Shown here: one piece after another, positions 32,030 through 64,000 of the stretch
How positions within the stretch are numbered: position 1 is the stretch's first letter
Layout: every line of letters begins with the position of its first letter
Origin: an uncultured Bacteroidota bacterium
GTDB lineage: Bacteria > Bacteroidota > Bacteroidia > Chitinophagales > Chitinophagaceae
DNA length: 64,000 nt
Assembly (NCBI GenBank): GCA_903905065.1
Contig: CAIVEW010000089.1
Location: forward strand, 62,001 to 126,000
Direction: 5' to 3'
The notes under the pieces: generated by a model
Seen by the model: only the letters and a program-made list of their open reading frames with translations
What the model was told of the DNA's origin: nothing
The model's database searches: none
Translations under genes and position numbers: made by a program

Positions 32030-32031
32030 TC

Positions 32032-32340: not shown

Positions 32341-32383
32341 ACTGACTATTTTAAAAGTTAAAACATTGCATTCTTATTCGCTT

Positions 32384-34260: not shown

Positions 34261-35660
34261 TTAAATGGAATTAAAGGCGGTTCAATTATGTTCTTTACTT
34301 GCAATGGATGCGGCGGCAATGAAGACAGCTTCCGTAGCCAAAAGTTTTTGTAATAAGGAAGGGTCTTGCTACGCAGTGGGGCTGAGTTATTTATCAGAAT
34401 AATCGCCTCATTTGCCATCCGCAGCTCATCCACTGACATCAACTCCCGCACTCCTTTTTCTTTACCAGTTTCCTCGTCAATTACTGTGTATTTCCCAAGG
34501 ATATGCGACAGTTCGCGACATGTATGCAACGGCTGTCCAGGCAAATAAATCTGACATCCACAGTTTGTTTTTATTTGGTGTGCCTCGCTTTGCCCATACT
34601 TTGAAATGAGGGCTATTTCGTCTTGCATACACAACGTTAAAGATGAATTAAATTTTCTTATATTTGATATTGTGGTAGACATCGCTGGAAACTTCATTGT
34701 AGCGAATTCGTCTAACAATATGAAAATGCTGCGCTCATCTTTATCAGGTATTCTAGAAAGAATGAAATTGAAAAGACTTTGAAAAAACAAAGCTGACAAA
34801 GGCCGGAAATAAATCAAGTGCTGCAAAGGATTGCAAACGAAAATAGCTACCGGAAAATCAGGATTACGGAGCATGCCGAAATCGATAGTATGAGTTGCCG
34901 TTGTTTTGCATACTTCTTTATCGTTCCACAAATTCAAAGCCACTCTGGTCGAAATTATTATTGACTGCAAAGTTTTGTCACCAACAACAAGCATTGCCTT
35001 ATATGAACTAATTAGCTCAGGGTCAGTTTTTATAAACATTTGGTCAATTTCATGCTCTGTATCGGTTGCGAATTTCTCCAACAGTCTGAGCACGTTCTGC
35101 AGCGTCCGGTATTGTACGTCTGCATAGAATACGAGATACCGTATGAACAATGACAGCAGCATGATGCTACTTTGTTCCCAAAATATTTCCGTTTTCGATT
35201 CACCCATTGCGTTATGAATGATAAGCAGGGCGACCTTTTGAATGTCAGATATAGTTTTGCATTCAAGCAGAGGATTGAACGACTCTGAATGAGTAGCATC
35301 GGAAAAATCAATTCGTAAAATCAAGTAACCTTTTTGGGCTAGATAGCCGCTGGTTCGCTGATAAATCTCTCCTGAAACATCGTTGAAAACAACAGATGAT
35401 TTTCCCCGGGCGATAGACACCGCCGATGAAATAATGACGGTGCTGGACTTACCGCTTCCGGTTGGTCCGAAAAGGGCAATATTGGTCATGGATTGGCTCC
35501 TTGTGATGGCTTTATGTCCCGTTACCGCCACTCCGAGGTTTAACCTGGACAGATGTTCATAATCACTCCCGAAATGCGCGTTGTAGGTATGTACCGACTT
35601 TTTCCGGCCTCCAAGTATAATGATAACCGCAAGGCCTATGCTAATGACACCGTAAATCAT
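34257..35660 (-). CDS. VirD4/TraG-type coupling ATPase
   Basis: ALFGPTGSGKSSTVIIS Walker A, FILLDEFATMKFP Walker B; start chosen at MIYGVISIGL (TM). Confidence 0.9.
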   Translation of the reverse strand: MIYGVISIGLAVIIILGGRKKSVHTYNAHFGSDYEHLSRLNLGVAVTGHKAITRSQSMTNIALFGPTGSGKSSTVIISSAVSIARGKSSVVFNDVSGEIYQRTSGYLAQKGYLILRIDFSDATHSESFNPLLECKTISDIQKVALLIIHNAMGESKTEIFWEQSSIMLLSLFIRYLVFYADVQYRTLQNVLRLLEKFATDTEHEIDQMFIKTDPELISSYKAMLVVGDKTLQSIIISTRVALNLWNDKEVCKTTATHTIDFGMLRNPDFPVAIFVCNPLQHLIYFRPLSALFFQSLFNFILSRIPDKDERSIFILLDEFATMKFPAMSTTISNIRKFNSSLTLCMQDEIALISKYGQSEAHQIKTNCGCQIYLPGQPLHTCRELSHILGKYTVIDEETGKEKGVRELMSVDELRMANEAIILINNSAPLRSKTLPYYKNFWLRKLSSLPPHPLQVKNIIEPPLIPFK

Positions 35661-35702
35661 TTTTTCACAAATTTTAAGATGAACTCGCTGAAGAAAACAC
35701 AT

Positions 35703-35735
35703 AGTTGACCAGTGCCTTTTAGGCACCAGCCAACT
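35703..35735. repeat. Nested hairpin upstream of the coupling-protein gene
   Basis: AGTTG-acca-GTGCCT-ttt-AGGCAC-cagc-CAACT. Confidence 0.7.
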
Positions 35736-35824
35736 ACTAGTAAAGTCAATTTCAGAACGGACAAAAAAAGCTGCGATAATAATTGCAGGACAACATTCCC
35801 ACCTTTTTCATGGCTCATAACAGT

Positions 35825-36571
35825 CTAAGATTTAGTGTTATCAAAAACTATATTTGCCCCAACATGTACCTCCGCACCGGCTTCCTCAAACAGCTTTTTG
35901 TAGAACACGGACATCAACGTGAAGTATTCATTATCCCTATCTGTTTTCGGCTTAAACGAAATCCATATGGTAAGCCCATGCAAATTGCCGGGCTTGCCAT
36001 ACTGAGACAATAATTCTTTTACTTTTTCAGGATGCTTTTTGATCAGGTTGCGATCACTGTCCCTATATATTGAAAAGACACTCGTGTTGTCGCAGCAGTC
36101 CGTGTAGGCAGTAACAGCTTTTACATCTGCTTTTATGGCGGAAATCCTATTTACTTCCTCAATGAAAGGAGCATAGATATTCGATTTCGGATAACCCTTA
36201 TTTTGACCGTTTACTGCATTAATCACAGTATCTACGTTCTGCTCAAACTTGTGTATTTCATTGTCCCTTTCGTCTGGGTTTGACAACAAAAAGAAACGAC
36301 CGGGCAATGCTAAAGTGCGGCTCTCGGTATACTTGAACTCTGAAAACGTGCGAACATTCAGTTGTACGCTCTGCCATTTGTGTTCGGCCAGATTAAGCGG
36401 CTGTAATACATCCATCCGGGTTGGACGTACTATGAACTGTTCCGTCTCATCTACAAGTACCGATTCCGCTACGCTACGGGAATATACCGGGAGGTATGAT
36501 GCATACGAATAGTATGCCCATCCCAATCCTATCAAAAGGATCGCTATTGAACTGTATCTTATTATTTTCAT
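35825..36571 (-). CDS. Hypothetical membrane-anchored protein of the element
   Basis: N-terminal TM, 248 aa, downstream of and co-oriented with the next ORF. Confidence 0.7.
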   Translation of the reverse strand: MKIIRYSSIAILLIGLGWAYYSYASYLPVYSRSVAESVLVDETEQFIVRPTRMDVLQPLNLAEHKWQSVQLNVRTFSEFKYTESRTLALPGRFFLLSNPDERDNEIHKFEQNVDTVINAVNGQNKGYPKSNIYAPFIEEVNRISAIKADVKAVTAYTDCCDNTSVFSIYRDSDRNLIKKHPEKVKELLSQYGKPGNLHGLTIWISFKPKTDRDNEYFTLMSVFYKKLFEEAGAEVHVGANIVFDNTKS

Positions 36572-36583
36572 AAAAGCAGTTTT

Positions 36584-37687
36584 TTAGTTTTTTAATTTAT
36601 TTTCCAATACGTGAACATCCTCTATAGTTTCATTTGCCAGCGGCAAATGAGGGTTCTTGAATGACTGCGGAAACAGTTTATCCGGGCGCTTGGCTACGTT
36701 TTCACTCTTGAACCACCCGACAGCTTCATCGAACATCATATTTACGGTCTCATGCAACTTCTCCTCAGCATGAATAAGACGAGTGCGAAGTTCCACGAAG
36801 AATTCGCGCTCCTTTATTAATATGTCCAGTTCCTGACGCAACCCTTTGCATTTTGCTTCGCTGGTCTTTATTTCCTTCTCTAGCCCCTCGGCTTTGCGCA
36901 TGTCATTGATTTGCGCCTTGGAAGGAAAGTTGAACAGAACGATGAGGCCAGTAGCGACAATAAACAGCATATTGATAGCTACGAATGTGAAAGGGTTCAT
37001 TACAATAAACGGAACATCCGTACCGGCTCCTTTGTGAATGAACCAATACCGGAGCAGCGCCAGGCAGCAGCTTAAAGCAAGAAAACCTGCTATTGCAATG
37101 ATGGTATACACCTTCCGCTTCTTCCTGTCATCAATCTCCTTAATGATCTGCACGGTCGTCTTAACGGCGGATATCTGCGCCAGCCCTATGACCAGACCAA
37201 GACAGAGAGCAATGAGCAGGATATCGCCCAGCTTAAGGAACGCGCTCACCGTCCACAGGCATTCACCGATGGCAAAGACGATGAGCAAGCTGCGCTGCTT
37301 CTTATATGACGCATGGTCGCCGTCAATGAAAATGCGCCCCCGGTCAACTGCAAGCCGATCTTTCCTGTCCGTCTCTGCCTGTATTTCCTTTTCTTTGTTC
37401 TCGATGTTCTGCCCGGCAGTCACAAGGTTCGCCGCTCCCAGTATTCTTTGCACACCACCCTGCAGCTTGATTGATACCTCTTTTTTGAGTTTGTTGTAAA
37501 AACCACGAATTGTGGTTAAGGTGGATTCAAATGACCCGTCCTGTTCGGCAGGAAAATTTTTGGAGGCATAGTTCCCTGCTTCAAAAAGAACTGTTTGCTT
37601 AAACTGTTCGTGCGCTTTTTTCAGGTAGTTTTCTACTGCTACTACCTCGCGCAGGAGAAAGCTCCAGTCTGTAAATTTGAATTTCAT
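36584..37687 (-). CDS. Hypothetical polytopic membrane protein with flanking coiled coils
   Basis: Four hydrophobic helices between heptad-rich N- and C-terminal regions. Confidence 0.7.
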   Translation of the reverse strand: MKFKFTDWSFLLREVVAVENYLKKAHEQFKQTVLFEAGNYASKNFPAEQDGSFESTLTTIRGFYNKLKKEVSIKLQGGVQRILGAANLVTAGQNIENKEKEIQAETDRKDRLAVDRGRIFIDGDHASYKKQRSLLIVFAIGECLWTVSAFLKLGDILLIALCLGLVIGLAQISAVKTTVQIIKEIDDRKKRKVYTIIAIAGFLALSCCLALLRYWFIHKGAGTDVPFIVMNPFTFVAINMLFIVATGLIVLFNFPSKAQINDMRKAEGLEKEIKTSEAKCKGLRQELDILIKEREFFVELRTRLIHAEEKLHETVNMMFDEAVGWFKSENVAKRPDKLFPQSFKNPHLPLANETIEDVHVLENKLKN

Positions 37688-42419: not shown

Positions 42420-42692
42420 CTATAAAGGTTTGGCCGGCTGAAAATCCTTAGGGCTGCATTCCAGGATTTTTGCGATCTCGTTCAAATGCTGAACGTTATA
42501 TTTCTTATCGTATTTCCCACTTTCGATCATTGCAATAAAACTGGTAGCCATATCAAGCTCAAAGGCAAGCTGTGACTGCGACAAGCCCTTCTGATGGCGT
42601 TTCTCGCGTACTTTCTCTATGACATACTTATCAACTTTGGAAATCATTTCCTGTTCAAAGTATGGCGAGAACAAAAAATAAACAGTCACCAA
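42420..42692 (-). CDS. XRE-family HTH regulator
   Basis: VREKRHQKGLSQSQLAFELDMATSFIAMIESGKYDKKYNVQHLNEIAKIL. Confidence 0.9.
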   Translation of the reverse strand: MVTVYFLFSPYFEQEMISKVDKYVIEKVREKRHQKGLSQSQLAFELDMATSFIAMIESGKYDKKYNVQHLNEIAKILECSPKDFQPAKPL

Positions 42693-49064: not shown

Positions 49065-52000
49065 TTAATGTGCCACTACCAACCTTTGTACTTGTAGCGC
49101 CTTGCCGTCTCCCTCCATGCGGATGATGTAAACTCCAGGCATCCAGTTCGCCGTATTTACCATCCAGCTTCCGCTCACTGTATTTGGCATGGTATAGTCT
49201 ATCTTCCTGCCCATAGCATCATAAATAGAGATGCTCTGGTCACTGTTTCCATCAGCGCCATAGTTATAAGAGATCGTCACCATGCTTGACGTTGGATTCG
49301 GGAAGACAAGCATCGCCGTGCTGACGTTTGCTTGCATGCCTGTGCTATTATTCGTCTTCCCTGTATCAGCGGGTGAATGTCCATTCCGTTCTGATACCGA
49401 CCATGGGCAGTTCGGTAAAGGTACCCTCCGTTTGTAGTAACATCTTCTGCCATTGCTGGTGTCGGTAAATATTACCTGTATAGTAACACTGTCCGGCGGC
49501 GGCACTGCAAGTGTTGTAAAAGTCAGCGTCATGGGCGGCTGGACTCCATATGAAGCAAGAATACCAGAGAACGGATCAATAGGACCAATGTCAGTACCTA
49601 GCGTATATATATATCCTCCGCCTGGGCTATACATTGTAATCGTCATGCTGTAGGTTGCAGGGTTAGTTGTGTCGCAGACAATCGCCACATGGAGCGAATC
49701 GCCCTGACACGTATCGCAATGCGCAACCGTAACGTCCATAGTATCGGATATTTTCGCGCACAATCCGTTGTTTAAATTCCACTGATATTCACCACCGCTA
49801 TCTACTACATACGACCCCATGAGACTTGATGTGCCGGACTCCGCTACTATATCATTGCGCAGCCAGGCCCAATAGCTAAACGTAACATCCGGCGGGCCAT
49901 ATAAGGTGATCGGCAACTGTTCCTCACAAAGCGAATAGCAGCCAGTTGGCAGATATGGAAAATACGTATCCGGTGCAAGCGGCACATAAGTATCCGAGGA
50001 ACTAATACAGCCGTACAGATCGGTAAACCATACACGATATGGCCCGCCAGAATAGATATCATCCACAGAATCGGTTGCACCATTGCTCCAATTGTAAAGA
50101 CCGACCCAGGGCGCTATTTCGGATGCCTTCAGTTCCAAATGGTAGGTGTTGCAATCTACCACGGTAACTGGCGATGCTATTACTGGGTTCGGCGGTAGCG
50201 GGTAAATGTTTATGCTGTCTATAGCTGATGTGTCATAGCAGGAAGTGCCTGAAGGTGTATCTGTGATTCCCAAAACCAGCATATACTGGTAGATCGAATC
50301 CGCAGAAAGGCCTGCGTCCACAATGTAGGGCAAAGAGCTTTCAGAATCGATACCACGCCACCATGCATAGGAAACGCCAGCACCTGCATAGCCAGACAGG
50401 TTCACTGTTTGTCCGTAGCAATAGTTTTGCAGGCCATAGATTTGTGCGTTCGGCGGTTGAATGATTTTTACGTATTGTGTGGGATAGAACGTTTGCTGAC
50501 ATTTATAAGAATCAATTACAGTCACCCAATACGAGCCTGACTGATAAACACTGTCAGCGCTCCCAACGGTTCCATTGCTCCATAGATAGATAAATGGCGC
50601 TGTTCCACTTGTTGTTGGAAATATAGCAAAATTTGTGACAAACGGCGCTGCATTAGAACAAACTACACCCCCTCCACCGTAAACACCCGTTAAAGTATTG
50701 TGATAAATTTGTACTGCTTCCGTTGTATCTGCCGTGCAGCCTATGGTATCAGTAACGGTTAGCAACACTGAAAAAGTATGCGGGTTGGTAGTGAATGTTG
50801 GCGACCAACTATATGTTCGCTGGGGATCCTGCAATAGATTAGAAGAGCTATCACCAAAGCTCCAATCGTAAGCAACAATGCCCGCTGTACTAGTGGCAGT
50901 GAATCTTATCGGCACATCCTCGCAGATCGGAGAAAGCGTATCAACAAACGCAGCATGAGGTCTGGCCGGTACAACAATGGGCAATGTAAACGTGCAACTG
51001 AATGTGCCGCCCGGCCGTGTGCCGGAGACTGTTTCGGTAATGTTGTAAGAGCCAATCGGTAGAGCTACGGTGAGGTTTGTCCCGCCGCCTAGTATTGTTC
51101 CGCTGTTATCCCAAACTATGGTGTCTATATGCCACCACGGCACATAGGCAGAATAATCAGTGAGCAGCAGGCTGTCATCTACACCTCCGGCGCATTTCAG
51201 CCGGTATCTGAAATTGGCAATAATACCTACCGTGTCCTGCTTGGTCGTATCTGCAATGCAGACACCGAAAGTCTTGGTAAATTCAAATGTATAAATGCCT
51301 GGTAAACCATAGGTGACTACGGCTATTGCACCGCCACCGGAAGTAGTAAAGCTCGTCGGAACTGTCGCCGGTCCCCATTCGGGACCGGTACCGCCTGTTG
51401 TGCCAGAACCATCCAGAGTTATTGAGTTGCAAATATCCGATGAAGTAACGATGAACGGAGTATCGCAATGAGGGTGAATGTGGAAGCCTCCCGTGTCGCA
51501 CATGGCATGGTTGATATTTACCACCTCGGAAACCCCCGAACAGCCATTGCTTGCGGTGACGGTAAAATAATAATTCTGAGGGCCGCCGGATGCAACATAT
51601 GTGGTATCCGTGGCGCCTGATATCGCCCCCGAACCGTTGTACCATTGGTAATCCAACCCAGTTACGTTATTCGTCACCGTGCCCACTAAGAGTGTGGTCA
51701 AACTGTCGCAACCCAGTATCTCGCCAGAAACACTGGTGTATGCTACCGGTCCTGGCAGAATTGGAATAGCTACCGAGCCACTGCCCGAGAGTGGGCAAGG
51801 CGCAGAGGAATCAGGTATTACTGTTACCCTAACGGTATAGATAATATTGCCGGTTGTCGTATTTAGCGGATACCTGTGCCCTGGCGATACGTTTGTAGTG
51901 GTCGTAGTTGTTGGTGTGCCGTCTCCAAAATCCCAAGTATAACTAATGCCTCCCGTATTCGAGGTAAACACCACCGGAGAATCAGGACATGCTGGCGATG

Positions 52001-55000
52001 GAACGGCAACAATGGTAACTCCCGGCGACGGCTGAACTACCACCGTGAGCGTATCCGATTTTACACTGTCGCATTTATGCACGGTCACGATGATCTTTGC
52101 AGTTGTGGCTGCTGTGACATTGTTCCACAAGATGGTATCAGCGGGCGCATGAGCACCGCGCACCACACTGCCTAAGGTATTCGGAGAGATAATCCAGTCA
52201 TATACTTCGCCGCGAGTGTAGTTGCAAGTATATCCTCTTTTTGAGTTGGCGCACGGCGTCGTATCTCCGGTGATATTTAGCTTGATGCTGTCAGTAGTAA
52301 TATTCACAGTATAGGCAGCGCCCAAACAATATGGCGGGAAAGTGTTCACATGGCTCACCAGCAGCTTCTTTGTGCCGGTGCTCGTCCACGTCACCGTCAC
52401 CGTATTGCCGACCGTTGTTGGGGAGATAATTCCACCAATGGCCTGCCAGGAATATACTGTGCCCGGTATATCGTTCCATGCCTTATAGTTATACAAACGC
52501 CCGAGGCATACGGTGTCAGGGCCGATAACGCTGTCAATCGCGCCCGGTGAACCGAGCACGTCAATGGTCAGTGGATTGGCGCAGAAGCCGCCAGTGGCCG
52601 AAAGCAGGTACGCACCCGGTGTTCCGAAAGTATGGGTGAATGAGCCAGAGCTGCTACCTGTCCCAATAACGCTGCCGGTAAGCACGCTTGATAAAACCCA
52701 GTTGCCGGATGCCCCGCCTGTGAGGTTGTATGTTTCGGTATAACCCTGGCATACCGTGGTTTGCCCGGTTATGGTATCTGGCGGAACTACAGACACTTTG
52801 AACAGCGCATTTCCGCCACACAGTTTTATCCTGTTTTGATACCATCCGTGTATCTCGTATGTGCCGAGGGAATCAAATTGCAGTATAACGGTATGGTCAT
52901 CACGGTAGCCAACGACTGCGCCGGGGTATCCGATGACTCCCCACATATATTGCGTTGCCGCCCAAAGCGGCAGGCTGTATTCATACTGTTCGCCTGCACA
53001 GACCACCGCAGGACCGGTAATGACGGGACTTTGCAATATCACGGGTATCTTTATTGTCGTGGTGTCGGAGCATACGCCGCTGCATCCGGGAGTGGCAAGG
53101 CTCACATAGCCAAAACCATCGGAACCGACATCGTTCCACTTCACAGTGATAGACGCAGTGCCTGAACCGGTTACGATAGTTCCGCCGATCACCGACCAGT
53201 TGTACGTTCCACAAGTAGCTGCCGTACTGTAAGTAGCGGTTTCGCTATCGCACACAATAGCTGCACATTGTATTTTCGGGGCCGGGTCGCTTGATACATT
53301 CAACACTTCGCGCATAGTGTCCGAACAGTTGCAGGCGTTCTTTACGACAAGTGTTACCGTATACGTGCCCGCTGCTGTATACGTATGCGATGGATCAGTT
53401 ATGGCTGTTCCTGTGCCGTCGCCGAAGTTCCATATCCATGACACTATTGGGGATGAAGAATCTGCCGTAGAAAAATCAGTAAATAAAATGTTGTCCGCAA
53501 GGCAATAGCTGGTACTGCCTGTGAAGAAATGCGCATGAGGCTTAGCTATTACTTTTATGCAAGCGATTGTTTCGGCAATGCAATGACTGGCAGTATCATA
53601 GAGTGTGATGGAGGCCGTAGTTCCAAGTGTGGGCCACATCACATCTATACTGTCGCCATAATTTGCGACGATGATACCCCCAACAACGCTCCATGTGAAC
53701 ATGCTGCCGCCGACGCCATTGCCATAATAACGCACAATGGAGCTGTCACATACAAGGATGCATCCCGTATCGGGTAGGATAGTTCCCGGTCCCACAAGAT
53801 CCCCGCCTGTTGCCAGTGTCTGGCAGGCGACGATAAAGTTGGTGGTGATGTACGGGATTTCATTAACGACGATAGCTGTGGTCGCAGTGCCTGTACCACA
53901 TAACGTAGTAGCGGTGTATGTAATCGTTACCGAGCCGGAGGCGATGCCCGTAACTATACCCGTCAAAAAACCTACCGTTGCAATGGCCGCATCACTACTG
54001 GTCCATGTGCCGCCGGTCATTCCATCGCTGAGTGTTATTGTGGAACCGGAGCATACGCCCAATGGGCCGGTAATAGGAAGCAGCGTATTATCATACACTT
54101 TCACTACTCTCGTTACGACTGATGTACCGCAACTATTGACTACGGAATAACTCAAAGTTGCGGTGCCCACAGCAACTCCTGTGGCTACTCCAGATGCAGA
54201 ACCAATGGTAACAATGCCGGTATTCCCGCTACTCCATACCCCACCACTAACAGAATCACTGAATGGAGCGGTAGACCCGACACATAGGGTATCAGTTCCT
54301 GAGATCGGTGGGACAACCGGCAAAGAATCAACAGAAATCGTGTAGGTGACAAAACAGCCTGTGCCTATCGTATAGGTGACTATGGCCGTACCTGTATGCA
54401 GCCCGGTGATCGTGCCGCTGGAACCGTCCACATTAATGGTGGTGCTACCGCTACTCCATGTGCCGCCAGCCGTAGAATCGCTGAGGATTATTCTTGCCAG
54501 CATGCAGACTGAATCTATGCCGTGTATAGGCAATGGCAACGGATTGACAGTAATTACTGCGCCTATATAACAACCCGTCGGAAGTATATATACGATGGTG
54601 TCACCGCCAGGGCTTACTCCCGTTACTGTACCCGAAACGGAGTCTATGGTCGCAATACCTGTGTTGAGGCTTATCCATGTACCGCCCGGGGAGTCATCCG
54701 ATAGCGCTGTTGTGTAGCTAACACAAACGGACAGCGCTCCGGAAATCGCAGATGGTAACGGGTTTACCGTAACAACAGTGGCAACACCGCATCCTGTCGG
54801 AAGTGTGTAACTAATAGTTGTGGTGCCGGAGGTTATACTTGTTACATGCCCCGTAGAGGAGCCGATCGTGGCAACCGAAATGTTATGGCTAGACCACGTA
54901 CCACCAGAGGTGGCATCAGTCAAATTTATCGTGTCGCCAGCGCACAACGGTGCATTTCCCGTAATTATTGCGGGGACGGGGTTTACGGTAACAGGGATCG

Positions 55001-58000
55001 GCAGCATATCAATGCATCCCGGTCCAACTGAAACGGTATAAACCAACGTGGCAGTACCGGCTCCAACGAAAACGATGTCGCCATCAGTAAGTCCGATTGT
55101 TACCACGCTCGTATCGGTACTGGAAAAGCCGCCTCCAGTCGGCGTAACCGTAACTACCACGGTCCCACCCACACAAATATCGAAAGGATAAGGCGGGTCG
55201 GTGGTAATAAAGAACGATGGCATCGGTATAACAGTTACTATCATCGATGCAGTCGCTGATCCGCAAGCATTGAAAGCCGTGTAAGTTACAGTAAGCGTAC
55301 CTGTTGTTACGCTCGTTAGCGTTGTTGCAGAAGTTGTATCCGATGACAGCGTACCGCTTCCCGTACCGGAGACGTCTGTCCATAAAACGGATGTCACGCC
55401 ACCCGGGCCGCTACTAAGACCTGGAGACCCGGTCAAGTTAATGCTGCATCCCAGATGTACAGAATCTAGCCCCAGTATTGTTGCCACCGAGGGTGTTGTT
55501 ATGACGGTAACAACCGTAGTCGTAACACTTGTACAAAAGGTCGGAGCAATACCTGTTGTTGTATAGCTAATAACAGACGTGCCAGCGTGCATTCCGGTTA
55601 CAAGGCCGGTAGATAGTCCAACGGATGCATTTGTGTCACTGCTTGTCCAGGTACCCCCTGATACGGTTTCAGTCAAAGTGGTAGTAGCACCAACGCATAA
55701 AATTGTCGTTCCCGCAATAACACCTGCATTCGGGTGTGGATTTACGGTCACAACATACGTTCTGTCACAGTCAGAGGGAGCAGCCGCAACGTAATGTATA
55801 GTTGCAGTTCCCGCGACAACTCCAGCTACTACGCCGGTCGTGAGTCCAACACTTGCTGTCCCAGGAGAACCGCTGTACCAAGTGCCACCAGTGATGGCAT
55901 CGGCTAGAGTAGTGGTTGATCCAACGCAAACAGCGGATGTACCTGTAATAGCCGCAGACGGATATACGGTAACCGTTGTCGTGATTGAGCAGGCACCTGG
56001 CGAAGTAATATAGCTGATGACTGCGGTTCCTGCACTTATCCCAGTCACAACCCCAGATGTCGAAATAGTTGCAACGCCTGGAAGGGCAGTACTCCATGTG
56101 CCTCCCGTTACATCATCAGTTAATGTAGTTGTTGACCCCTGACATACTGTTTTTGTCCCGTTAATTTCCCCGGGAGATCGAGTGACTGATACGGTATCTG
56201 TCGTTGTCGACGATCCACAAGAGTTTGTAGCGACGCATGAAAATATTTCTATTCCCGAACTAAAACCATAAGTGGCTGCAACAGCAGTACTGCCTGAGTC
56301 AGACAATATAAAACCTACAATACCGGAAGAGAACCAACCAAATGACGTGGCCCCAGTGCCGGTAATTCCTAAATCAAATCCAACACCCGAACAAACCACG
56401 GAGGGGCCTGAAATCAAGCCGACTGTTGGTGTTGAGTTAACAGTTACACATTTCGATGTTGTTACCGGATAGTAGCAAGGGCCATCTAAAGTGGGCGTAG
56501 TTATGCTGGTAATATTAAGACACAGCGTGCCTACTGTAGTTATCAAGCTCCCAGACACCGTAACTCCTATATGTCCTGACGAAGGTATGGTATCCGATCC
56601 TGTTGTCGGCGATCCGGATGGATAGGTTATGGTATAATGGACCACATCTAAATATGTACCGTTTACGACAAAGGTAAAATCAGCGCCTACGCAAGGGTTC
56701 GCGGTAGTCGTAGTAAGGGCTGCCGGCGTAGGTTTAGGGCATACGGCTACGTCTCCGGTGGCTGTTGTGCCACTAGTGCGATATAGTGTAATATTATCAA
56801 TGGAAATACTCTTGTCCATCACAAGTTCTGCATCCTCTATACATATAAAGGTTGTGCCAGAGTATCCGCTTGTAAAATCGAATGCTACTTGATACCAATT
56901 AGGATCACATCCGGGATAAATTCCCGCTCCATAGGTTACATTGATTGTGGTACCGCCACCAAGGCCATTCTCCAATGTTGATCCGCTATGCCCGGCAGCG
57001 CCAATTAATGTGGCAAATTCCGGATATCCAATATGACCAAGAACATCTGCGTCCAAAGGTCGCCAGTATCGATACCAAAAAGAAAAATGGTAGGTTGCTC
57101 CGGGACATAAATCAACAGTCTGACCCCAAAAATAATGCGCATAGTCTCCGGCGGTCCCATGAGCCGACCAAAAATTAAGGCACACATCCCCCGGAGGACT
57201 GCCATCTTCAGATATATATAATGGACATTCCCTACCCGGGTCCATTCCATACGAATTGTTCATGACAATATGGTCAGGACCTTCATCCCCCGCCGAGTGC
57301 GTCGAGCTACAAATGTTTCCATATAGAGTTTCCATACACGGAAATCTATTGCAGATGTCACCTGGCGAGAAGTCCTGATAAAATTCACCGTTGTTTATAA
57401 GATTAGGCCCTTGACAAGTTGCAGTAAGGGTATATGTCTCGCAAATGGAAGCGACCCCAACAGAAAACATAACTCCCGTAGGGTCACCAGTCCCGCTGGA
57501 CGGTGTTGGAAGTGGCAAGCCGGTTGGCGCGGCCCAGCTATATGCGATAGGTACAAACCCGGCAGGATAGGTAACGTGTACTGTGTATGTGTAGGTACTA
57601 CCTGGGCACAGGTTGTCGCCGGAGGGAACTGTAAAGGTCGTATTCGTGCACGGATCATAAATTGGTGGGCACAGAGTTCCAGTAATTGTAGAGGAAGTTG
57701 TTCGTTCACTGCTGTGTGTTCCAAATGTTGCAAAGCAACCGTCAGACAATGTATAGGTGATTGTTACCGCGCCATCGCTAACACCTGTTACATTTCCTGC
57801 CAGGCTAGGCGTAGATGTGTCTGCCGTTGCAGTGGCAACGGTTGTATCGCTACTACTCCAAATGCCTCCGCCAATTAAATTGATGAAGTAATACGGAATG
57901 CCTATAAAAACCGGATCGCCTCCTTCAATTGGATTTGGGGACAAGTTAACTGTTACAGTCGCTGTGGCCGGTGAGCAACCTCCTTCGAGTACATAAGTTA

Positions 58001-60278
58001 TAACACTTGTGCCTGCAGACAAACCCGTAATAGTCCCTGATCCAGAACCAATTGTCGCAATGCTACCATCACTGCTGCTCCATGTGCCGCCTGTGGAACC
58101 ATCACTTAATGTGATCGTTAAGCCTGAGCAAACCGTAAGATAACCACTTATCGATGCCGGAAGCGCATTTACTATGAAAGAAATCATTGCAATGCATCCT
58201 GCTACGGATGTGTAGGTAATTGTCGCACTCCCGTTTTCAATTCCGGCGACTACGCCTGAGCCAGAACCAATGGTGGCAACACTACCGTCGCTACTGCTCC
58301 ATACCCCTCCTGTTGTTGCGTCACTTAACGTCATTGTTGATCCTGCGCATAAAGAGGTTGATCCGGCTATCCCAGCAGGTAGAGCATTGACCGTAAGCGA
58401 TATCGTTGTGATACATCCGGTCCCGGCCATATAAGTAATCGTCGCAGTACCGCCTGCAACTCCAGTTATAATGCCCGATGCAGAGCCGATGGTTGCGATA
58501 GTCCCATCACTGCTGCTCCATGTGCCTCCGGTAGTAGCGTCATTGAGAGTTGTTGCTAACCCTGCACACACAGAAGCTGATCCCGTGATTGCAGCGGGCA
58601 GCGGATTAACAGTTACAATTGCATATACGGGAGTACATGCATCTGCGGGCGCAAACGTAATTGTTGCAGTTCCGGAAGCTACGCCGGTAGCGACTCCTGA
58701 ACCTGAACCTATAGTGGCAATACCAGGGCTACTACTGCTCCAGATTCCGGATATGCTATCGCTCAATGAGGTAGTTAAACCCAGGCATACAGATAAAGTA
58801 CCTGAAATTGCTGTAGGCAACGCAAAGACTGTTACGGTTGCAGTTGCATAGCAGCCAGTGGTGGTATACACATATGATACCGTTGAAGTTCCTCCAACCA
58901 CTCCGGTTACTATGCCAGATGCTGAACCAACAGTTGCAATAGTTACATTACTGCTGCTCCATGTACCACCTCCTGATGCGTCACTCAATGTAGTTGTTTG
59001 GCCCACGCACATGGACATAGTACCCGTAGTAGTAACAGGCACAGGATTGACAGTTACAATTGCAGTCACATAAGGACACCCGCTTGTAGGTGTATAAGTA
59101 ATGGTTGACGTACCCGGAGCTACGCCAATTACGGTTCCGGTAGCTGAGCCAATTGTTGCGTGAGTGGAACTACTGTTTGACCATGTGCCTGCGTTCAGCG
59201 CATCGGTTAATGTCGTCACTGAGCCGACGCAAACGGTTTTTGTTCCCGAGATCGCCGAAGCCAGTGCATTGACCGTCAGTACTGTCGTTATGTAACAGCC
59301 TGTATTAATGGTATAAGTGATCGTCGTTGTGCCAGCGCTCCCTCCAAGCACTGCGCCGCTGAAACTGATCGTTGCAACGGATGTGTTGCTGCTTAGCCAT
59401 GAAGTGGTCGTCGGTGTTGAGTCAGATAAAAATGTGGTATAGCCTACGCAGACGGAGGCCGTGCCATTGATTGGACTAGGGTTGCGGTTGACTGTAATAT
59501 TATAGACAGCAGCGCAGCCAGTAGAAAATGCATAGGTCATGGTCGCATTGCCTGACGCCACGCCTGTTACGATGCCAGTGCCCGAACCAATAGTCGCAGT
59601 AGAGGTATTGCTACTTGTCCATGCTCCACCAGAGGCAAAATCACTGAGCGATATTGTATAACCAACGCAGACTTTTGTTGCCCCTCCAATGCCAGAAGGA
59701 TTTGGATTTAACGTCACAACCGTGGTTGCCTGGCATCCAGTGGTAAGTTTATAGGTAATAGTGACTGTTCCAGTTGAACTACCCTGTCCGGTTACAATGC
59801 CGGTTGAGCCAACTTTAGCGCGTACTGTATTGCTGCTGCTCCAGACTCCGCCAGATGTAGCATCTGTTAGACTTGTAATCCCAGATGTCCCGCATATTTG
59901 AGTGTTGCCGGTTATCCCCGCCGGGACATCATTTACCGTTGCCGTTTTGGTGACATAGCAGCCGCCGGAAACGGTGTAGCTGACAGTGCATGTGCCGGCT
60001 GCTACACCGGTCACTATGCCTGTTGAGCCAATAGCGCCAATAGTTGCATCGCTGCTACTCCATGTGCCGCCGGTTGTGGCATCAGTCAAATTGGTTGTTA
60101 GCCCAACGCATACCGATCCAGTGCCGGTGATAGCAGCCGGAGTTGAGCAGCCATACGAAACACTTCGGATCGACAAGAGAAATAAAAATAAAACAATCGC
60201 TTTGAATTCAAAACTTAGGTAGCTATTTCTTGTGGCGAAGCTACGGACAGAGCGGTTTTCTTTGATATTGGGTTTCAT
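49065..60278 (-). CDS. Giant (3737 aa) Ig-like/PKD repeat surface protein with T9SS sorting domain
   Basis: Roughly twenty ~70-75-aa repeats 'ITGTxSVCxGxTTxLsDATxGGtWSSSxxxIATIGsxsGxVTGVxxGTxtITYxxxxGC...VTVNPxP', PKD modules, C-terminal LVFPNPTSSMVTISYNYGADGNSDQSISIYDAMGRKIDY...GVYIIRMEGDGK. Confidence 0.93.
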   Translation of the reverse strand: MKPNIKENRSVRSFATRNSYLSFEFKAIVLFLFLLSIRSVSYGCSTPAAITGTGSVCVGLTTNLTDATTGGTWSSSDATIGAIGSTGIVTGVAAGTCTVSYTVSGGCYVTKTATVNDVPAGITGNTQICGTSGITSLTDATSGGVWSSSNTVRAKVGSTGIVTGQGSSTGTVTITYKLTTGCQATTVVTLNPNPSGIGGATKVCVGYTISLSDFASGGAWTSSNTSTATIGSGTGIVTGVASGNATMTYAFSTGCAAVYNITVNRNPSPINGTASVCVGYTTFLSDSTPTTTSWLSSNTSVATISFSGAVLGGSAGTTTITYTINTGCYITTVLTVNALASAISGTKTVCVGSVTTLTDALNAGTWSNSSSTHATIGSATGTVIGVAPGTSTITYTPTSGCPYVTAIVTVNPVPVTTTGTMSMCVGQTTTLSDASGGGTWSSSNVTIATVGSASGIVTGVVGGTSTVSYVYTTTGCYATATVTVFALPTAISGTLSVCLGLTTSLSDSISGIWSSSSPGIATIGSGSGVATGVASGTATITFAPADACTPVYAIVTVNPLPAAITGSASVCAGLATTLNDATTGGTWSSSDGTIATIGSASGIITGVAGGTATITYMAGTGCITTISLTVNALPAGIAGSTSLCAGSTMTLSDATTGGVWSSSDGSVATIGSGSGVVAGIENGSATITYTSVAGCIAMISFIVNALPASISGYLTVCSGLTITLSDGSTGGTWSSSDGSIATIGSGSGTITGLSAGTSVITYVLEGGCSPATATVTVNLSPNPIEGGDPVFIGIPYYFINLIGGGIWSSSDTTVATATADTSTPSLAGNVTGVSDGAVTITYTLSDGCFATFGTHSSERTTSSTITGTLCPPIYDPCTNTTFTVPSGDNLCPGSTYTYTVHVTYPAGFVPIAYSWAAPTGLPLPTPSSGTGDPTGVMFSVGVASICETYTLTATCQGPNLINNGEFYQDFSPGDICNRFPCMETLYGNICSSTHSAGDEGPDHIVMNNSYGMDPGRECPLYISEDGSPPGDVCLNFWSAHGTAGDYAHYFWGQTVDLCPGATYHFSFWYRYWRPLDADVLGHIGYPEFATLIGAAGHSGSTLENGLGGGTTINVTYGAGIYPGCDPNWYQVAFDFTSGYSGTTFICIEDAELVMDKSISIDNITLYRTSGTTATGDVAVCPKPTPAALTTTTANPCVGADFTFVVNGTYLDVVHYTITYPSGSPTTGSDTIPSSGHIGVTVSGSLITTVGTLCLNITSITTPTLDGPCYYPVTTSKCVTVNSTPTVGLISGPSVVCSGVGFDLGITGTGATSFGWFSSGIVGFILSDSGSTAVAATYGFSSGIEIFSCVATNSCGSSTTTDTVSVTRSPGEINGTKTVCQGSTTTLTDDVTGGTWSTALPGVATISTSGVVTGISAGTAVISYITSPGACSITTTVTVYPSAAITGTSAVCVGSTTTLADAITGGTWYSGSPGTASVGLTTGVVAGVVAGTATIHYVAAAPSDCDRTYVVTVNPHPNAGVIAGTTILCVGATTTLTETVSGGTWTSSDTNASVGLSTGLVTGMHAGTSVISYTTTGIAPTFCTSVTTTVVTVITTPSVATILGLDSVHLGCSINLTGSPGLSSGPGGVTSVLWTDVSGTGSGTLSSDTTSATTLTSVTTGTLTVTYTAFNACGSATASMIVTVIPMPSFFITTDPPYPFDICVGGTVVVTVTPTGGGFSSTDTSVVTIGLTDGDIVFVGAGTATLVYTVSVGPGCIDMLPIPVTVNPVPAIITGNAPLCAGDTINLTDATSGGTWSSHNISVATIGSSTGHVTSITSGTTTISYTLPTGCGVATVVTVNPLPSAISGALSVCVSYTTALSDDSPGGTWISLNTGIATIDSVSGTVTGVSPGGDTIVYILPTGCYIGAVITVNPLPLPIHGIDSVCMLARIILSDSTAGGTWSSGSTTINVDGSSGTITGLHTGTAIVTYTIGTGCFVTYTISVDSLPVVPPISGTDTLCVGSTAPFSDSVSGGVWSSGNTGIVTIGSASGVATGVAVGTATLSYSVVNSCGTSVVTRVVKVYDNTLLPITGPLGVCSGSTITLSDGMTGGTWTSSDAAIATVGFLTGIVTGIASGSVTITYTATTLCGTGTATTAIVVNEIPYITTNFIVACQTLATGGDLVGPGTILPDTGCILVCDSSIVRYYGNGVGGSMFTWSVVGGIIVANYGDSIDVMWPTLGTTASITLYDTASHCIAETIACIKVIAKPHAHFFTGSTSYCLADNILFTDFSTADSSSPIVSWIWNFGDGTGTAITDPSHTYTAAGTYTVTLVVKNACNCSDTMREVLNVSSDPAPKIQCAAIVCDSETATYSTAATCGTYNWSVIGGTIVTGSGTASITVKWNDVGSDGFGYVSLATPGCSGVCSDTTTIKIPVILQSPVITGPAVVCAGEQYEYSLPLWAATQYMWGVIGYPGAVVGYRDDHTVILQFDSLGTYEIHGWYQNRIKLCGGNALFKVSVVPPDTITGQTTVCQGYTETYNLTGGASGNWVLSSVLTGSVIGTGSSSGSFTHTFGTPGAYLLSATGGFCANPLTIDVLGSPGAIDSVIGPDTVCLGRLYNYKAWNDIPGTVYSWQAIGGIISPTTVGNTVTVTWTSTGTKKLLVSHVNTFPPYCLGAAYTVNITTDSIKLNITGDTTPCANSKRGYTCNYTRGEVYDWIISPNTLGSVVRGAHAPADTILWNNVTAATTAKIIVTVHKCDSVKSDTLTVVVQPSPGVTIVAVPSPACPDSPVVFTSNTGGISYTWDFGDGTPTTTTTTNVSPGHRYPLNTTTGNIIYTVRVTVIPDSSAPCPLSGSGSVAIPILPGPVAYTSVSGEILGCDSLTTLLVGTVTNNVTGLDYQWYNGSGAISGATDTTYVASGGPQNYYFTVTASNGCSGVSEVVNINHAMCDTGGFHIHPHCDTPFIVTSSDICNSITLDGSGTTGGTGPEWGPATVPTSFTTSGGGAIAVVTYGLPGIYTFEFTKTFGVCIADTTKQDTVGIIANFRYRLKCAGGVDDSLLLTDYSAYVPWWHIDTIVWDNSGTILGGGTNLTVALPIGSYNITETVSGTRPGGTFSCTFTLPIVVPARPHAAFVDTLSPICEDVPIRFTATSTAGIVAYDWSFGDSSSNLLQDPQRTYSWSPTFTTNPHTFSVLLTVTDTIGCTADTTEAVQIYHNTLTGVYGGGGVVCSNAAPFVTNFAIFPTTSGTAPFIYLWSNGTVGSADSVYQSGSYWVTVIDSYKCQQTFYPTQYVKIIQPPNAQIYGLQNYCYGQTVNLSGYAGAGVSYAWWRGIDSESSLPYIVDAGLSADSIYQYMLVLGITDTPSGTSCYDTSAIDSINIYPLPPNPVIASPVTVVDCNTYHLELKASEIAPWVGLYNWSNGATDSVDDIYSGGPYRVWFTDLYGCISSSDTYVPLAPDTYFPYLPTGCYSLCEEQLPITLYGPPDVTFSYWAWLRNDIVAESGTSSLMGSYVVDSGGEYQWNLNNGLCAKISDTMDVTVAHCDTCQGDSLHVAIVCDTTNPATYSMTITMYSPGGGYIYTLGTDIGPIDPFSGILASYGVQPPMTLTFTTLAVPPPDSVTIQVIFTDTSNGRRCYYKRRVPLPNCPWSVSERNGHSPADTGKTNNSTGMQANVSTAMLVFPNPTSSMVTISYNYGADGNSDQSISIYDAMGRKIDYTMPNTVSGSWMVNTANWMPGVYIIRMEGDGKALQVQRLVVAH

Positions 60279-60593: not shown

Positions 60594-61505
60594 TTATTCT
60601 TCTGTCTCTTCTGTTTCCTCCTGTTCAGTCTTTACATTGAGAATAAAGTCAGCGGCTTTCTGCGCAGCGCTGGCAGCGAAGAAGACGAACCGTTTATCAT
60701 TCTTCAATTTCCGCAACCATCCATATATATACGCCGCGCTCTGCTGAAACTGGCTCGTGATACCGGCATGGGATTGCAGGTAGCATGTGCCAATCTCCGC
60801 GATCAACTCTTCCTGCGAATAAGCCTCACCGCCGAACTCTGCCATTTCCGCGATAGTCTTCCTGTTGAGCCTGCTTTCATGCCCTGTGCTATGCACTAGC
60901 TCATGGAACAGCGTGGAGTAATAGGCATCATCGGTCTTGAAGCTCCGTTTCTTCGGCATGTTCACAAAGTCCTCCTTGACGTTGTAGAAGGCGCTTTGCT
61001 CCTTGTGCCGGATCGGCGGGCAATGTGGCATAGCCCTTATGATGCTTTCGCATGACGGCTGCTCAGCTGTCTCGCGTGCCGCAGGCAAATACTTCTCCGG
61101 GATGTTCTCGCACTGTGTGACGTTGAAGACATAGTAATACCGGAGTACCGTTTTCGGCTTCTGTGCGCCTGGTTCCGTTTCCGCTTCCAGTGCTTCCTCC
61201 TTCGGCTTTCGGTTCCAATACACAACCATATGGCCCTTCTCGCCTTTCTTAACTTTGGCCTTGATCTCTCCCAACTGTTGGAAAGTGATGAACAGATTAT
61301 GCTCATAGTCCTCCATCGCAAGGAGCATGAGATTGATGCCCCGGTACTGTCTGCCAGTTATCATGTTCCTCGGGATGCGGCCAGTGTTCCATGGCCGCTG
61401 CCAGGGAATGGTGCCTTTGTTCAGCTGCTCAATGATCCTTTCATTGATGATTCCGTACACATCTTTCTGCGTACCGGCTTTCGCGTTTGGTGTTTGCGTG
61501 TCCAT
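60594..61505 (-). CDS. ArdC-like antirestriction protein (ssDNA-binding domain plus metallopeptidase-like domain)
   Basis: VYGIINERIIEQLNKGTIPWQRPWNTGRIPRNMITGRQYRGINLMLL; HELVHSTGHESRL. Confidence 0.9.
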   Translation of the reverse strand: MDTQTPNAKAGTQKDVYGIINERIIEQLNKGTIPWQRPWNTGRIPRNMITGRQYRGINLMLLAMEDYEHNLFITFQQLGEIKAKVKKGEKGHMVVYWNRKPKEEALEAETEPGAQKPKTVLRYYYVFNVTQCENIPEKYLPAARETAEQPSCESIIRAMPHCPPIRHKEQSAFYNVKEDFVNMPKKRSFKTDDAYYSTLFHELVHSTGHESRLNRKTIAEMAEFGGEAYSQEELIAEIGTCYLQSHAGITSQFQQSAAYIYGWLRKLKNDKRFVFFAASAAQKAADFILNVKTEQEETEETEE

Positions 61506-61588
61506 GTCATTTTGTTTTTGTTGTTAAAGAGAAAATTTACTTCAGTACCAGTGTAGGAGAAGAAGCAAAGGATATATAGAGAGGAGAA

Positions 61589-61606
61589 ATTCTCATTTAT
61601 GAGAAC
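61589..61606. promoter_or_regulatory. 18-bp operator-like palindrome (copy 1)
   Basis: ATTCTCATTTATGAGAAC. Confidence 0.75.
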
Positions 61607-61620
61607 ATTCGCAGAATATG

Positions 61621-61643
61621 AAAAAAGCACCCGAAGGTGCTTT
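61621..61643 (-). terminator. Intrinsic terminator of the methylase-like gene
   Basis: Minus strand AAGCACC-ttcg-GGTGCTTTTTT. Confidence 0.8.
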
Positions 61644-62419
61644 CAAAATAGCTTCAATTGCGATGCTGGCCCTGTCTGCTTTATATCTTCTGATATGAAA
61701 GCGACAGCTGGCTTCGCTACTTCACTTTTTCGCTCGAATGAATTCTTGTGCAGATGCCACAGCTTTGATTCCTCCTTGTTCTCAATCCTGAATATGCCAA
61801 GCGGAAGAAATGAGATGGCATAACTGATTCGGAAATCGCCGGGACTGAGCGCGTCTCCCCACATGACCTCCGAATGAAACCTGCCGTTCAAGAACAAATT
61901 GAGGGCCGTCATCTTTACGCACGTATGGTCTATATCTATCCCATAGTATTCATGCGCTGGGCCTGCTACCTTCGATCCTGCCAAAAGCATCCGACCGCTA
62001 CCGCAGCAAGGGTCTAGTATCCGCATTGTCTCTTCACTTTCTTTCACGTCACCGCAGACGATTTGTGCCATGAACCGGCAGATGGGCCAGGGCGTAAAAA
62101 ATTGCCCTGAATTCTTCCGGCAGAAATTCTGCTCATAGAAATCGCCGAGCACGTCGTTACCAGACCCGACGTCTAACCGTTCCTCCATTTCGACCGTGAG
62201 CCTGGCAAAGACCTTGGGAAAATGAAACCGCAGATCGTCAGTATTGTACTTGGCGACTGTTTGCAGGTACAGGTCTTCGTAGTGGGATTTACCTGCGCCG
62301 GGTATTTGCGTGACGGCGCACATGGACATGGTAAGGAGATCGTCAAAGGTGGCGCGGAGATCGTAGCGGTAGGCAAAGGATTCCATCATTGTTGCGAACG
62401 TTTCTGTTTTGCTTTTCAT
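61643..62419 (-). CDS. N-6 DNA methylase-like (HsdM-like) protein, possibly lacking catalytic motif IV
   Basis: CRKNSGQFFTPWPICRFMAQIV, ILDPCCGSGRMLLAG, YGIDIDHTCVKMTALNLFLNG. Confidence 0.85.
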   Translation of the reverse strand: MKSKTETFATMMESFAYRYDLRATFDDLLTMSMCAVTQIPGAGKSHYEDLYLQTVAKYNTDDLRFHFPKVFARLTVEMEERLDVGSGNDVLGDFYEQNFCRKNSGQFFTPWPICRFMAQIVCGDVKESEETMRILDPCCGSGRMLLAGSKVAGPAHEYYGIDIDHTCVKMTALNLFLNGRFHSEVMWGDALSPGDFRISYAISFLPLGIFRIENKEESKLWHLHKNSFERKSEVAKPAVAFISEDIKQTGPASQLKLF

Positions 62420-62464
62420 AGAACTTGTTTTTATGAAAAGCCTAGCAACACACTACTTAATAAA

Positions 62465-62497
62465 ATACCCCGGAAAAGTTCTCATTTATGAGAACCC
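62465..62497 (-). terminator. Terminator hairpin with nested operator palindrome (copy 2)
   Basis: Minus strand ATACCCCGG-[GGTTCTCATAAATGAGAACTTTT]-CCGGGGTAT-TTTATT; operator GTTCTCATTTATGAGAAC at 62478-62495. Confidence 0.75.
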
Positions 62498-62506
62498 CGG
62501 GGTATG

Positions 62507-62977
62507 TTATTTTACCCGTCCGATGTTGTGTGCCGCAAGCACCGCTTCAAAGACCTTGTCGTAATACGGCTTCTTCGCCTCTAGTTCTTTGCGATACAGC
62601 GGCAGCAGTTGAGGGTACTGGTGAGCGATATATGCGAACAGCGCAGCCCTATTGATCTTCTTTTTAGAATCGTGCCGCTTCCGTAAGTCAGATAGCGTAT
62701 AGTACCTGACGGTCATCCCCTCGCTTTCGAAAAGCGCATTCAGCGCACCGATGAGCTGGGCATAGCCGAGAGATCGCGGCATGATGTCCGGAACCTTCAC
62801 CGCTACTTCCCGTATCTTGTGCCGGTGGATGAGCTGCGATAGGCTGTAGAGGATTTCAATGAGCTTTCCGTCCGACCATTTGGCCTTGTACGACTTCACT
62901 CCCCACTTCCGTATTTCCCTGTCCTCTACCAACACAAATCCGCACGAGCGCGTACCTGGGCTTAGGCCAAGTATCAT
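62507..62977 (-). CDS. RuvC-like (RNase H fold) nuclease
   Basis: MILGLSPGTRSCGFVLVEDREIRKWGVKSYK...VAVKVPDIMPRSLGYAQLIGALNALFESEG...YYDKVFEAVLAAHN. Confidence 0.75.
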   Translation of the reverse strand: MILGLSPGTRSCGFVLVEDREIRKWGVKSYKAKWSDGKLIEILYSLSQLIHRHKIREVAVKVPDIMPRSLGYAQLIGALNALFESEGMTVRYYTLSDLRKRHDSKKKINRAALFAYIAHQYPQLLPLYRKELEAKKPYYDKVFEAVLAAHNIGRVK

Positions 62978-63192
62978 AGGCTGGAACCGCGATTCTTAAC
63001 TAGGTGCATGTAGTATGCCGCCCGGCTGCGCTTGATGTTCTCCTTCGGCGTGTGCATCACGATCTCCAGTATCTCACGGAGGAATTCTTCGGAGTACTTG
63101 GCGACGATATATTCATGCACACTGAGCGATTTTGTGTCCTGTAATGTGCTTGCGATCTCATAGGCAAAGGTTTTCTTTTCTGCTTCATTCAT
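62974..63192 (-). CDS. Small protein overlapping the RuvC-like gene by ATGA
   Basis: 72-aa ORF, stop/start overlap with 62507-62977. Confidence 0.65.
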   Translation of the reverse strand: MNEAEKKTFAYEIASTLQDTKSLSVHEYIVAKYSEEFLREILEIVMHTPKENIKRSRAAYYMHLVKNRGSSL

Positions 63193-63195
63193 AGA

Positions 63196-63213
63196 GTTCT
63201 CAGATATGGGAAC
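63196..63213. promoter_or_regulatory. Operator-like palindrome (copy 3, variant)
   Basis: GTTCTCAGATATGGGAAC. Confidence 0.6.
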
Positions 63214-63307
63214 TTGTTACGTTCCCGATCGTTATTATTTACTAATAATCGAACGTTATGATACCGTAGGTACGAACGATGGTTTTATGCTAAGTTTTTT
63301 GCACGGT

Positions 63308-63325
63308 GTTCTCATAAATGAGAAC
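63308..63325. promoter_or_regulatory. Operator-like palindrome (copy 4, perfect)
   Basis: GTTCTCATAAATGAGAAC. Confidence 0.75.
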
Positions 63326-63341
63326 TTTTAACATAAGTCAC

Positions 63342-63632
63342 TTACGGAGGTTTTTTTCTCTTTTTCTTCCGTTCGACCTTCTTAAACCAGTCTTCTATTT
63401 CCTTGACCGCTTCCTGTCTGAGATCATAAAAGAGTTGGGCTTCGGATGTTTTGTACAATGCAGACAGCTTGTAAAGATTTTTGAGGCCAGGGTAGCGCAA
63501 CCCGTTTTCCCACTCCGAGATGCGGCCTTTGCTTTTCAGGCCCAGTGCGTCCTTTACTTCGTCAAGTGTCAGCCCTGCTTCTAGCCGGGCGATGCGCAGT
63601 TCGTATGGACTGTATCTCGGTCCTTTCTCCAT
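63342..63632 (-). CDS. XRE-family HTH regulator
   Basis: ELRIARLEAGLTLDEVKDALGLKSKGRISEWENGLRYPGLKNLYKLSALY. Confidence 0.88.
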   Translation of the reverse strand: MEKGPRYSPYELRIARLEAGLTLDEVKDALGLKSKGRISEWENGLRYPGLKNLYKLSALYKTSEAQLFYDLRQEAVKEIEDWFKKVERKKKRKKPP

Positions 63633-63678
63633 CTATTAAAAAATAACAATTGGGGATCCTTCCGGGCAGACCGGAGAA

Positions 63679-63696
63679 ATTCCTACAAATGAGAAC
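63679..63696. promoter_or_regulatory. Operator-like site (copy 5, degenerate left half)
   Basis: ATTCCTACAAATGAGAAC, intact ATGAGAAC half-site. Confidence 0.45.
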
Positions 63697-63834
63697 TGGC
63701 TGTAAAAGAAGATACTGCGGGCAAAAGAAATCCCCGTGATGATGCGAGGAGAACCAGACCGGCAGCTTTGTATGAATTTGTACTTTTATTTTACACGAAA
63801 AATCGCGCGGGTGCGCGGGTGTTGAAGCTGTTTT

Positions 63835-63852
63835 GTTCCCATATATGAGAAC
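63835..63852. promoter_or_regulatory. Operator-like palindrome (copy 6)
   Basis: GTTCCCATATATGAGAAC, one arm mismatch. Confidence 0.65.
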
Positions 63853-63900: not shown

Positions 63901-64000
63901 ATGAAACCGGTCAATAATTCCATAGCGATCATCCGTCCCAAGCGGCATTTTATGAAATGGGCGAACGTCAATACGCTTGACGAGTGCGAATTTTCCTTTG
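63901..64000 (+). CDS. Hypothetical protein, 3'-truncated by window end
   Basis: Open frame MKPVNNSIAIIRPKRHFMKWANVNTLDECEFSF... Confidence 0.6.
   Translation, partial: MKPVNNSIAIIRPKRHFMKWANVNTLDECEFSF

Follow-up and report, generated by a model that had tools for sequence, protein, structure and literature searches.

Palindromic operators distributed over the promoters of a Bacteroidota mobile element make up, in the reading that we hold with slightly better than even confidence, a self-contained regulon of an integrative element, which would be read by the small XRE protein of that element (XRE1) acting as a dual regulator, with an operator code that has diversified from one element to another. 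The sites themselves, their fixed geometry, their conservation across a family of related elements and their co-variation with the regulator were established by computation. The window analysed is a stretch of 64,000 nucleotides, corresponding to positions 62001-126000 of contig C89 of genome G000; the contig ends at 137284, and features beyond the window are given in the numbering of locus L016, to which 59000 is added to obtain the window coordinate.

Palindrome copies in the window and in the genome

The first-pass annotation, made from the letters of the sequence, had listed six copies of an 18-base palindrome (8+2+8) in the distal part of the window, and all six were recovered at their positions. 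A scan of the window for GTTCTCATNNATGAGAAC with up to three mismatches returned exactly five matches, each with zero to two mismatches and all of them within 61589-63852 (Table 1), while the expectation from dinucleotide shuffling is 0.23 and no more than two were found in any of 100 shuffles. The sixth copy, ATTCCTACAAATGAGAAC at 63679, is half-degenerate; it is judged to be a real site because it lies 46 bp before the XRE start codon, which is the place occupied by the operator in relatives with a clear motif. Beyond the window, a degenerate copy, ATTCCTAGAAATGAGAAC, is found at L016 8085 before the second XRE gene, and a tandem pair of palindromes (L016 10377 and 10395) precedes the ATPase gene.

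The same annotation had proposed a motif scan of the host genome, and its outcome favours a local system. In the 4.68 Mb of G000, the four copies with no more than a single mismatch all fall in this 2.3-kb block, and outside it only scattered matches with two or three mismatches occur, near the level of a reversed-pattern control (18 in total versus 12). The assignment of sites to genes held insofar as the copies do lie before the units named; it had to be corrected for those at 63196 and 63308, which both serve the operon of the 72-aa and RuvC-like proteins (the latter copy sits just past the XRE1 stop codon), the site of the XRE gene itself being the one at 63679.

Intergenic inverted repeats that are perfect or nearly so might also represent RNA hairpins, terminators or chance repeats. 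This explanation is very improbable, given that the sites are located upstream of promoters at fixed distances with no T runs after them, that the equivalent positions in relatives hold other sequences of the same symmetry, and that the number expected by chance in the window is as low as stated above.

Table 1. Genes, operators and promoter elements of the block and of the adjoining element core (window coordinates unless L016 is indicated)
Feature	Position	Strand	Evidence and remarks
ArdC antirestriction protein (ArdcN + zincin-like peptidase)	60594..61505	-	Pfam 5.6e-30 and 1.3e-37
-7 box of ArdC promoter, TACACTGG	61548-61555		43 bp from operator centre
ArdC operator, 1 mismatch	61589..61606	-	edge 83 bp and centre 92 bp before start codon; orthologous site in L042 at 8929
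N6-adenine DNA methylase domain protein	61643..62419	-	Pfam N6_Mtase 1.3e-16
-7 box of methylase promoter, TAGGCTTT	62437-62444		
N6-methylase operator, perfect (0 mismatches)	62478..62495	-	edge 58 bp before start codon; orthologous L042 sites 5813 and 8036
RuvC-fold protein	62507..62977	-	Pfam RuvC 1.2e-4; Foldseek to RuvC 8.8e-8, probability 1.00
72-aa conserved protein, no known family	62974..63192	-	predicted four-helix fold, model pLDDT 94
Proximal operator of 72-aa/RuvC-like operon, 2 mismatches	63196..63213	-	edge 3 bp before start codon; L042 5093
Conserved non-coding CGAACG/CGTTCG repeats around an AT-rich palindrome	63214..63307	.	family comparison
Distal operator of 72-aa/RuvC-like operon, perfect (0 mismatches)	63308..63325	-	edge 115 bp before start codon; L042 4979
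XRE1, 96-aa HTH_3 regulator	63342..63632	-	Pfam HTH_3 PF01381 4.2e-12, above cut-off
-7 box of XRE1 promoter, TATTTTTT	63638-63645		
XRE1 autoregulatory operator (putative), 4 mismatches	63679..63696	-	centre 55 bp before ATG; L042 4579
Operator before 106-aa ORF, 1 mismatch	63835..63852	+	edge 48 bp before the ORF
106-aa ORF, start	63901..64000	+	continues to L016 5221, beyond the window end; homologue at L042 1557-1889, 33% identity
Serine recombinase	L016 8314-10083		phrog_95 integrase 2.1e-52; present in most relatives too
VirD4/TraG-like ATPase	L016 10458-11642		

Genes of the block and of the element core

Read outward on the minus strand, the block encodes ArdC, an N6-methylase, a RuvC-like protein, a 72-aa protein and XRE1, past which are found the plus-strand 106-aa ORF, further XRE genes (the start codon of XRE3 in L016 was set by hand to 8039), a serine recombinase and a VirD4/TraG-like ATPase. 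The best PDB relative of XRE1 is the Xre-family regulator of ICEBs1 (7t8i, E 3.4e-12), and its profile also matches phage repressors and chains of C.BclI, C.AhdI and C.Csp231I. The 72-aa protein, which occurs throughout the element family, gave no clear match in Pfam (best E 0.025, one member each), no confident structural match in Foldseek (two chains were rechecked, with a Z of only ~4) and no relatives in a scan of IMG/VR with its alignment.

In the RuvC-like protein the first catalytic Asp is replaced by Ser, a change that is invariant in the aligned members (Cys in one relative motif). The protein has probably lost resolvase activity and probably binds junctions or hairpins rather than acting as a nuclease. 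The link that had been drawn between the palindromes, antirestriction and DNA processing is right as to the types of gene, with this reservation about the RuvC-like protein. A phage or plasmid origin gained no support from tblastn searches of phage and plasmid collections, in which the RuvC-like protein has no match.

The interval that separates the paired operators of the 72-aa gene (63214-63307), like the same place in relatives, holds repeats that are often followed by a DnaA-box-like TTATCCACA; they are a candidate origin, or a candidate binding site for the 72-aa or the RuvC-like protein. The element ATPase is 52-58% identical to genes in many Patescibacteria genomes, which suggests exchange between Bacteroidota and Patescibacteria. 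No relaxase was recognised in the block in a non-exhaustive look; Pfam DUF3991, a possibly relaxase-linked domain whose search does not test the absence of a relaxase, had no match in the genome. A separate block at 30698-37687, with genes for a tyrosine recombinase, a relaxase-like protein (32384-33781) and a VirD4-like coupling protein, is apparently a different mobile element. The ORF adjoining the palindrome-bearing block (49065-60278; 3737 aa) is rich in repeated segments, Ig/PKD-like by eye, and two paralogous proteins of 720-750 aa are encoded downstream of it.

A family of elements which keeps the places and changes the letters of its operators

Homologues of XRE1 and of the 72-aa, RuvC-like, ArdC, methylase, recombinase and ATPase proteins co-occur, in similar order, in many Bacteroidota genomes, the named carriers being Flavipsychrobacter stenotrophus, Limnovirga soli, and Ferruginibacter and Emticicia species. 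The block is taken to be the core of a family of Bacteroidota integrative elements; this copy and most of its relatives encode a recombinase of their own. Defence cargo recurs across the family. In this copy, components B and C of PD-Lambda-2 adjoin the core (L016 12276-14643, window-equivalent 71276-73643), the ImmA-like protein at L016 13366-14643 being the match to PD-Lambda-2_B; relatives carry Gabija (L045, L059) or a HamB-like helicase with a caspase-like domain (L119). A limited search of the open-access literature found no paper on this element family. That these loci represent an undescribed and widespread family of defence-carrying Bacteroidota elements, with a small activator-type XRE, private immunity-like operator groups and the same fixed promoter architecture at all standard promoters, is a proposal to which we give just under an even chance.

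The operators were compared across about 40 related loci with start codons assigned by homology. Wrongly called XRE or ATPase starts produced apparent misses in some elements, and an automatic search over wide promoter regions missed or misread others, narrow positional windows performing better. In the closest relative, L042 of genome G015, whose XRE1 is 81% identical, the same palindrome is kept before the XRE gene, the 72-aa gene (twice), each of two methylase genes and the ArdC gene. Only G000 and G015, among 197 related genomes, contain two or more copies with a single mismatch or none, and genomes without a close XRE1 hold one such palindrome at most.

A de novo search for palindromes beat 40 of 40 shuffles at more than 20 element loci. 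Each clear locus has one palindrome that is common to the promoters of its own element and differs between most elements: ATTTACCATNNATGGTAAAT in L050 and L102 (that of L050 being of the ATTTACCAT type), ATTAGCCTNNNNAGGCTAAT in L056, TTTGCCTANNTAGGCAAA in L105, ATATACACNNGTGTATAT in L101, AGGAGTGCNNNNGCACTCCT in L122 and TTTCCCTANNNNTAGGGAAA in L125. In these clear-motif elements the operator centre lies ~54 bp before the XRE and ATPase starts; a motif learned from non-XRE promoters only was centred, in 19 of 25 elements, 51-57 bp upstream of the neighbouring XRE start. The compact regulon suggested by the first-pass annotation gains support from these relatives, which keep sites at the same places. 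No clear shared motif was obtained in several elements, e.g. L109, L112, L113, L116, L119 and L120, and in L108 the recovered motif does not sit at the XRE gene. Paired operators at the 72-aa gene can be made out clearly in only part of the elements (L016, L042, L056 and L105 among them), and palindromicity at these positions is not raised across the whole family.

Co-variation of the operators with the recognition helix of XRE1

The protein encoded at 63342-63632 had been named as the possible regulator, and the sequence of the sites does co-vary with its recognition helix. In 32 elements, and with operators taken from ArdC, methylase or ATPase promoters only, half-site similarity correlated with the identity of the XRE1 recognition helix (Mantel r=0.289, 0/2000 permutations). 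Neither the remainder of the HTH domain (r=0.128, 169/2000) nor the RuvC-like protein (r=0.052, 414/2000) gave a significant correlation; with the RuvC-like protein partialled out, the correlation with the helix is 0.254 (6/2000). The co-variation is moderate (r ~0.25-0.29), with phylogenetic signal only partly controlled. It persists without L042 (9/5000) and weakens when the 19 significant motifs alone are used (138/5000, p ~0.03), and a nearest-neighbour test over all 31 elements was not significant (923/5000). The held-out L138 has an ATPase 88% identical to the one described here, yet carries an RLSQWER-type XRE together with the TATCCAY-type operators of that class, and L150 combines an LSRWEHG-type XRE with the ATTTG...CAAAT palindrome typical of that XRE class. 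This selective link to the recognition helix points to XRE1 as the reader of the operators, a role that is well supported, if not proved.

Elements often carry several XRE genes, all encoding HTH proteins and likewise with operators ~54 bp upstream, and XRE1 may share its sites with these other XREs. It is conceivable that the palindromes are read by a different regulator of the element (the second XRE, by the recombinase, or the 72-aa protein) or by a host factor, XRE1 being a mere target, but we regard this as distinctly unlikely. From one element to another the second XREs mostly keep much the same DR[IL]S/C-x-WE recognition helix, while the operators change. In a set of 11 elements the operator is tracked by XRE1 (135/5000) and not by these second XREs (r=0.20, 980/5000); a host factor is at odds with the differences in operators between closely related genomes. 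The further XRE gene at 42420-42692 is outside the block, with no palindrome copy nearby and no link to the sites. A close homologue of it (L042 10222-10452) is located right next to the ArdC end of the relative element, and it is possibly a flanking host gene.

Promoter geometry and sign of control

When promoters were aligned by operator centre, a conserved, pyrimidine-rich TTCTCCC..CCTTAT segment was found, followed by a -7 box (TACACTG, TAnnTTT). The distance from the operator centre to the start of this box is 43 bp in 33 of 59 promoters and 42-45 bp in 37 of them, every other 4-bp offset accounting for 0-4 promoters. At the ArdC promoters it lies 42-44 bp from the centre in 16 of 17 cases, though the distance from operator to ATG spans 82-93 bp. 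As the flavobacterial sigma-A box TAnnTTTG extends from -12 to -5 (PMC9723704), the operator centre is placed near -54 (~-54.5 from the predicted transcription start), upstream of the -33 region and different from the classic class II position (-41.5). A TTTG at -33 is present in only three of the 59 promoters. The operators of the XRE, ArdC, methylase and ATPase genes extend ~10 bp past their centres and are located wholly upstream of the -33 region.

These distances bear on the sign of control. XRE1 might read every operator as a plain repressor of the CI, Stl or ImmR type, with the element silent until induced and the upstream position ancestral. Such a repressor would agree with operators that are spread over the element and include that of the XRE1 gene itself, with the operator that covers the start of the 72-aa/RuvC-like operon, and with the resemblance of XRE1 to phage and ICE repressors. 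However, it would need no phase that is constant to 1-2 bp, and the operators at the XRE, ArdC, methylase and ATPase genes end upstream of a -33 region in which the TTTG box is absent from 56 of 59 promoters; we consider plain repression rather unlikely, while still giving it appreciable weight. A rigid upstream operator with no -33 box is a better fit to an activator or a dual regulator, and the proximal operator at the start of the 72-aa gene fits repression. The dimeric repressor of the first-pass annotation would suit that proximal operator, where the position is repressor-like, and is called into question at the XRE, ArdC, methylase and ATPase genes, where it is activator-like. The fixed spacing could also have been inherited from one duplicated promoter.

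The -7 box of XRE1 ends ~5 bp before the ATG, and the XRE and ATPase transcripts are predicted to be leaderless, as in C-protein operons. C proteins are known for leaderless C transcripts and for activation through sigma region 4 (PMC4824078).

Discussion

In the dual regulation proposed for XRE1, binding, sign of control, signal and leaderless transcription are inferred from the DNA. A dimer of XRE1 would bind the 8+2+8 palindrome and would control its own gene, the 72-aa/RuvC-like operon, the methylase, ArdC and the 106-aa ORF; past the window, the regulon would extend to the second XRE gene, the VirD4/TraG-like ATPase and, probably, the divergent serine-recombinase operon. At standard promoters the dimer, positioned just upstream of the -33 region and in fixed phase with the -7 box, would most likely recruit RNA polymerase, while at the 72-aa gene the proximal operator, lying over the start region, would most likely mediate repression. 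As a whole, XRE1 would combine activation and repression in the manner of lambda CI, ICEBs1 ImmR or the C proteins, and its recognition helix and operators would have diversified together across the family, providing each element with a private code.

To our knowledge, little is known about the regulation of defence-carrying mobile elements in Bacteroidota. Their operator architecture offers a means to recognise such a family, and naturally diversified pairs of regulator and operator, with fixed geometry, bring the recognition code of XRE proteins within reach of a direct test, as well as the choice between activation and repression. A private operator code predicts that different elements coexist in one cell without cross-regulation, and that a resident copy controls an incoming element of the same code.

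Comparison with known systems

The C proteins C.Csp231I, C.AhdI and C.BclI are likewise small XRE proteins, and act through promoter-upstream palindromes on their own genes and on DNA-modification genes nearby; XRE1 shares with them a family-conserved operator upstream of its own promoter. In contrast to C-protein systems, no restriction enzyme gene was recognised among the operator-bearing units, the boxes are mostly single (one palindrome at the XRE1 promoter rather than tandem OL/OR C-boxes), and the regulon spans most of a mobile element, including the ATPase and ArdC. ICEBs1 ImmR and its kin, among which is the closest sequence relative of known structure, also place an integrative element under one regulator; XRE1 differs in its length of only 96 aa, much of it taken up by the HTH domain, the conserved core encodes no ImmA-type protease dedicated to it, and here the host is a Bacteroidota and the recombinase a serine recombinase. 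The RuvC-like protein has the fold of the RuvC Holliday-junction resolvases, from which it departs at the first catalytic Asp.

By analogy, XRE1 would work like C proteins and CI/ImmR repressors but would belong to neither class, because it comes without the endonuclease gene and paired boxes of the former and without the cleavage domain or ImmA partner of the latter. In lambdoid CI immunity groups, the regulator changes in step with its operators: every element acquires a specificity of its own, and the target positions remain fixed. Compared with these phages, the elements have single operators dispersed over ~8 units, no gene seen marks them as phages, and XRE1, with an HTH match only, is without an oligomerisation or self-cleavage domain; what the family has in common with them is the joint diversification of regulator and operators at constant target positions.
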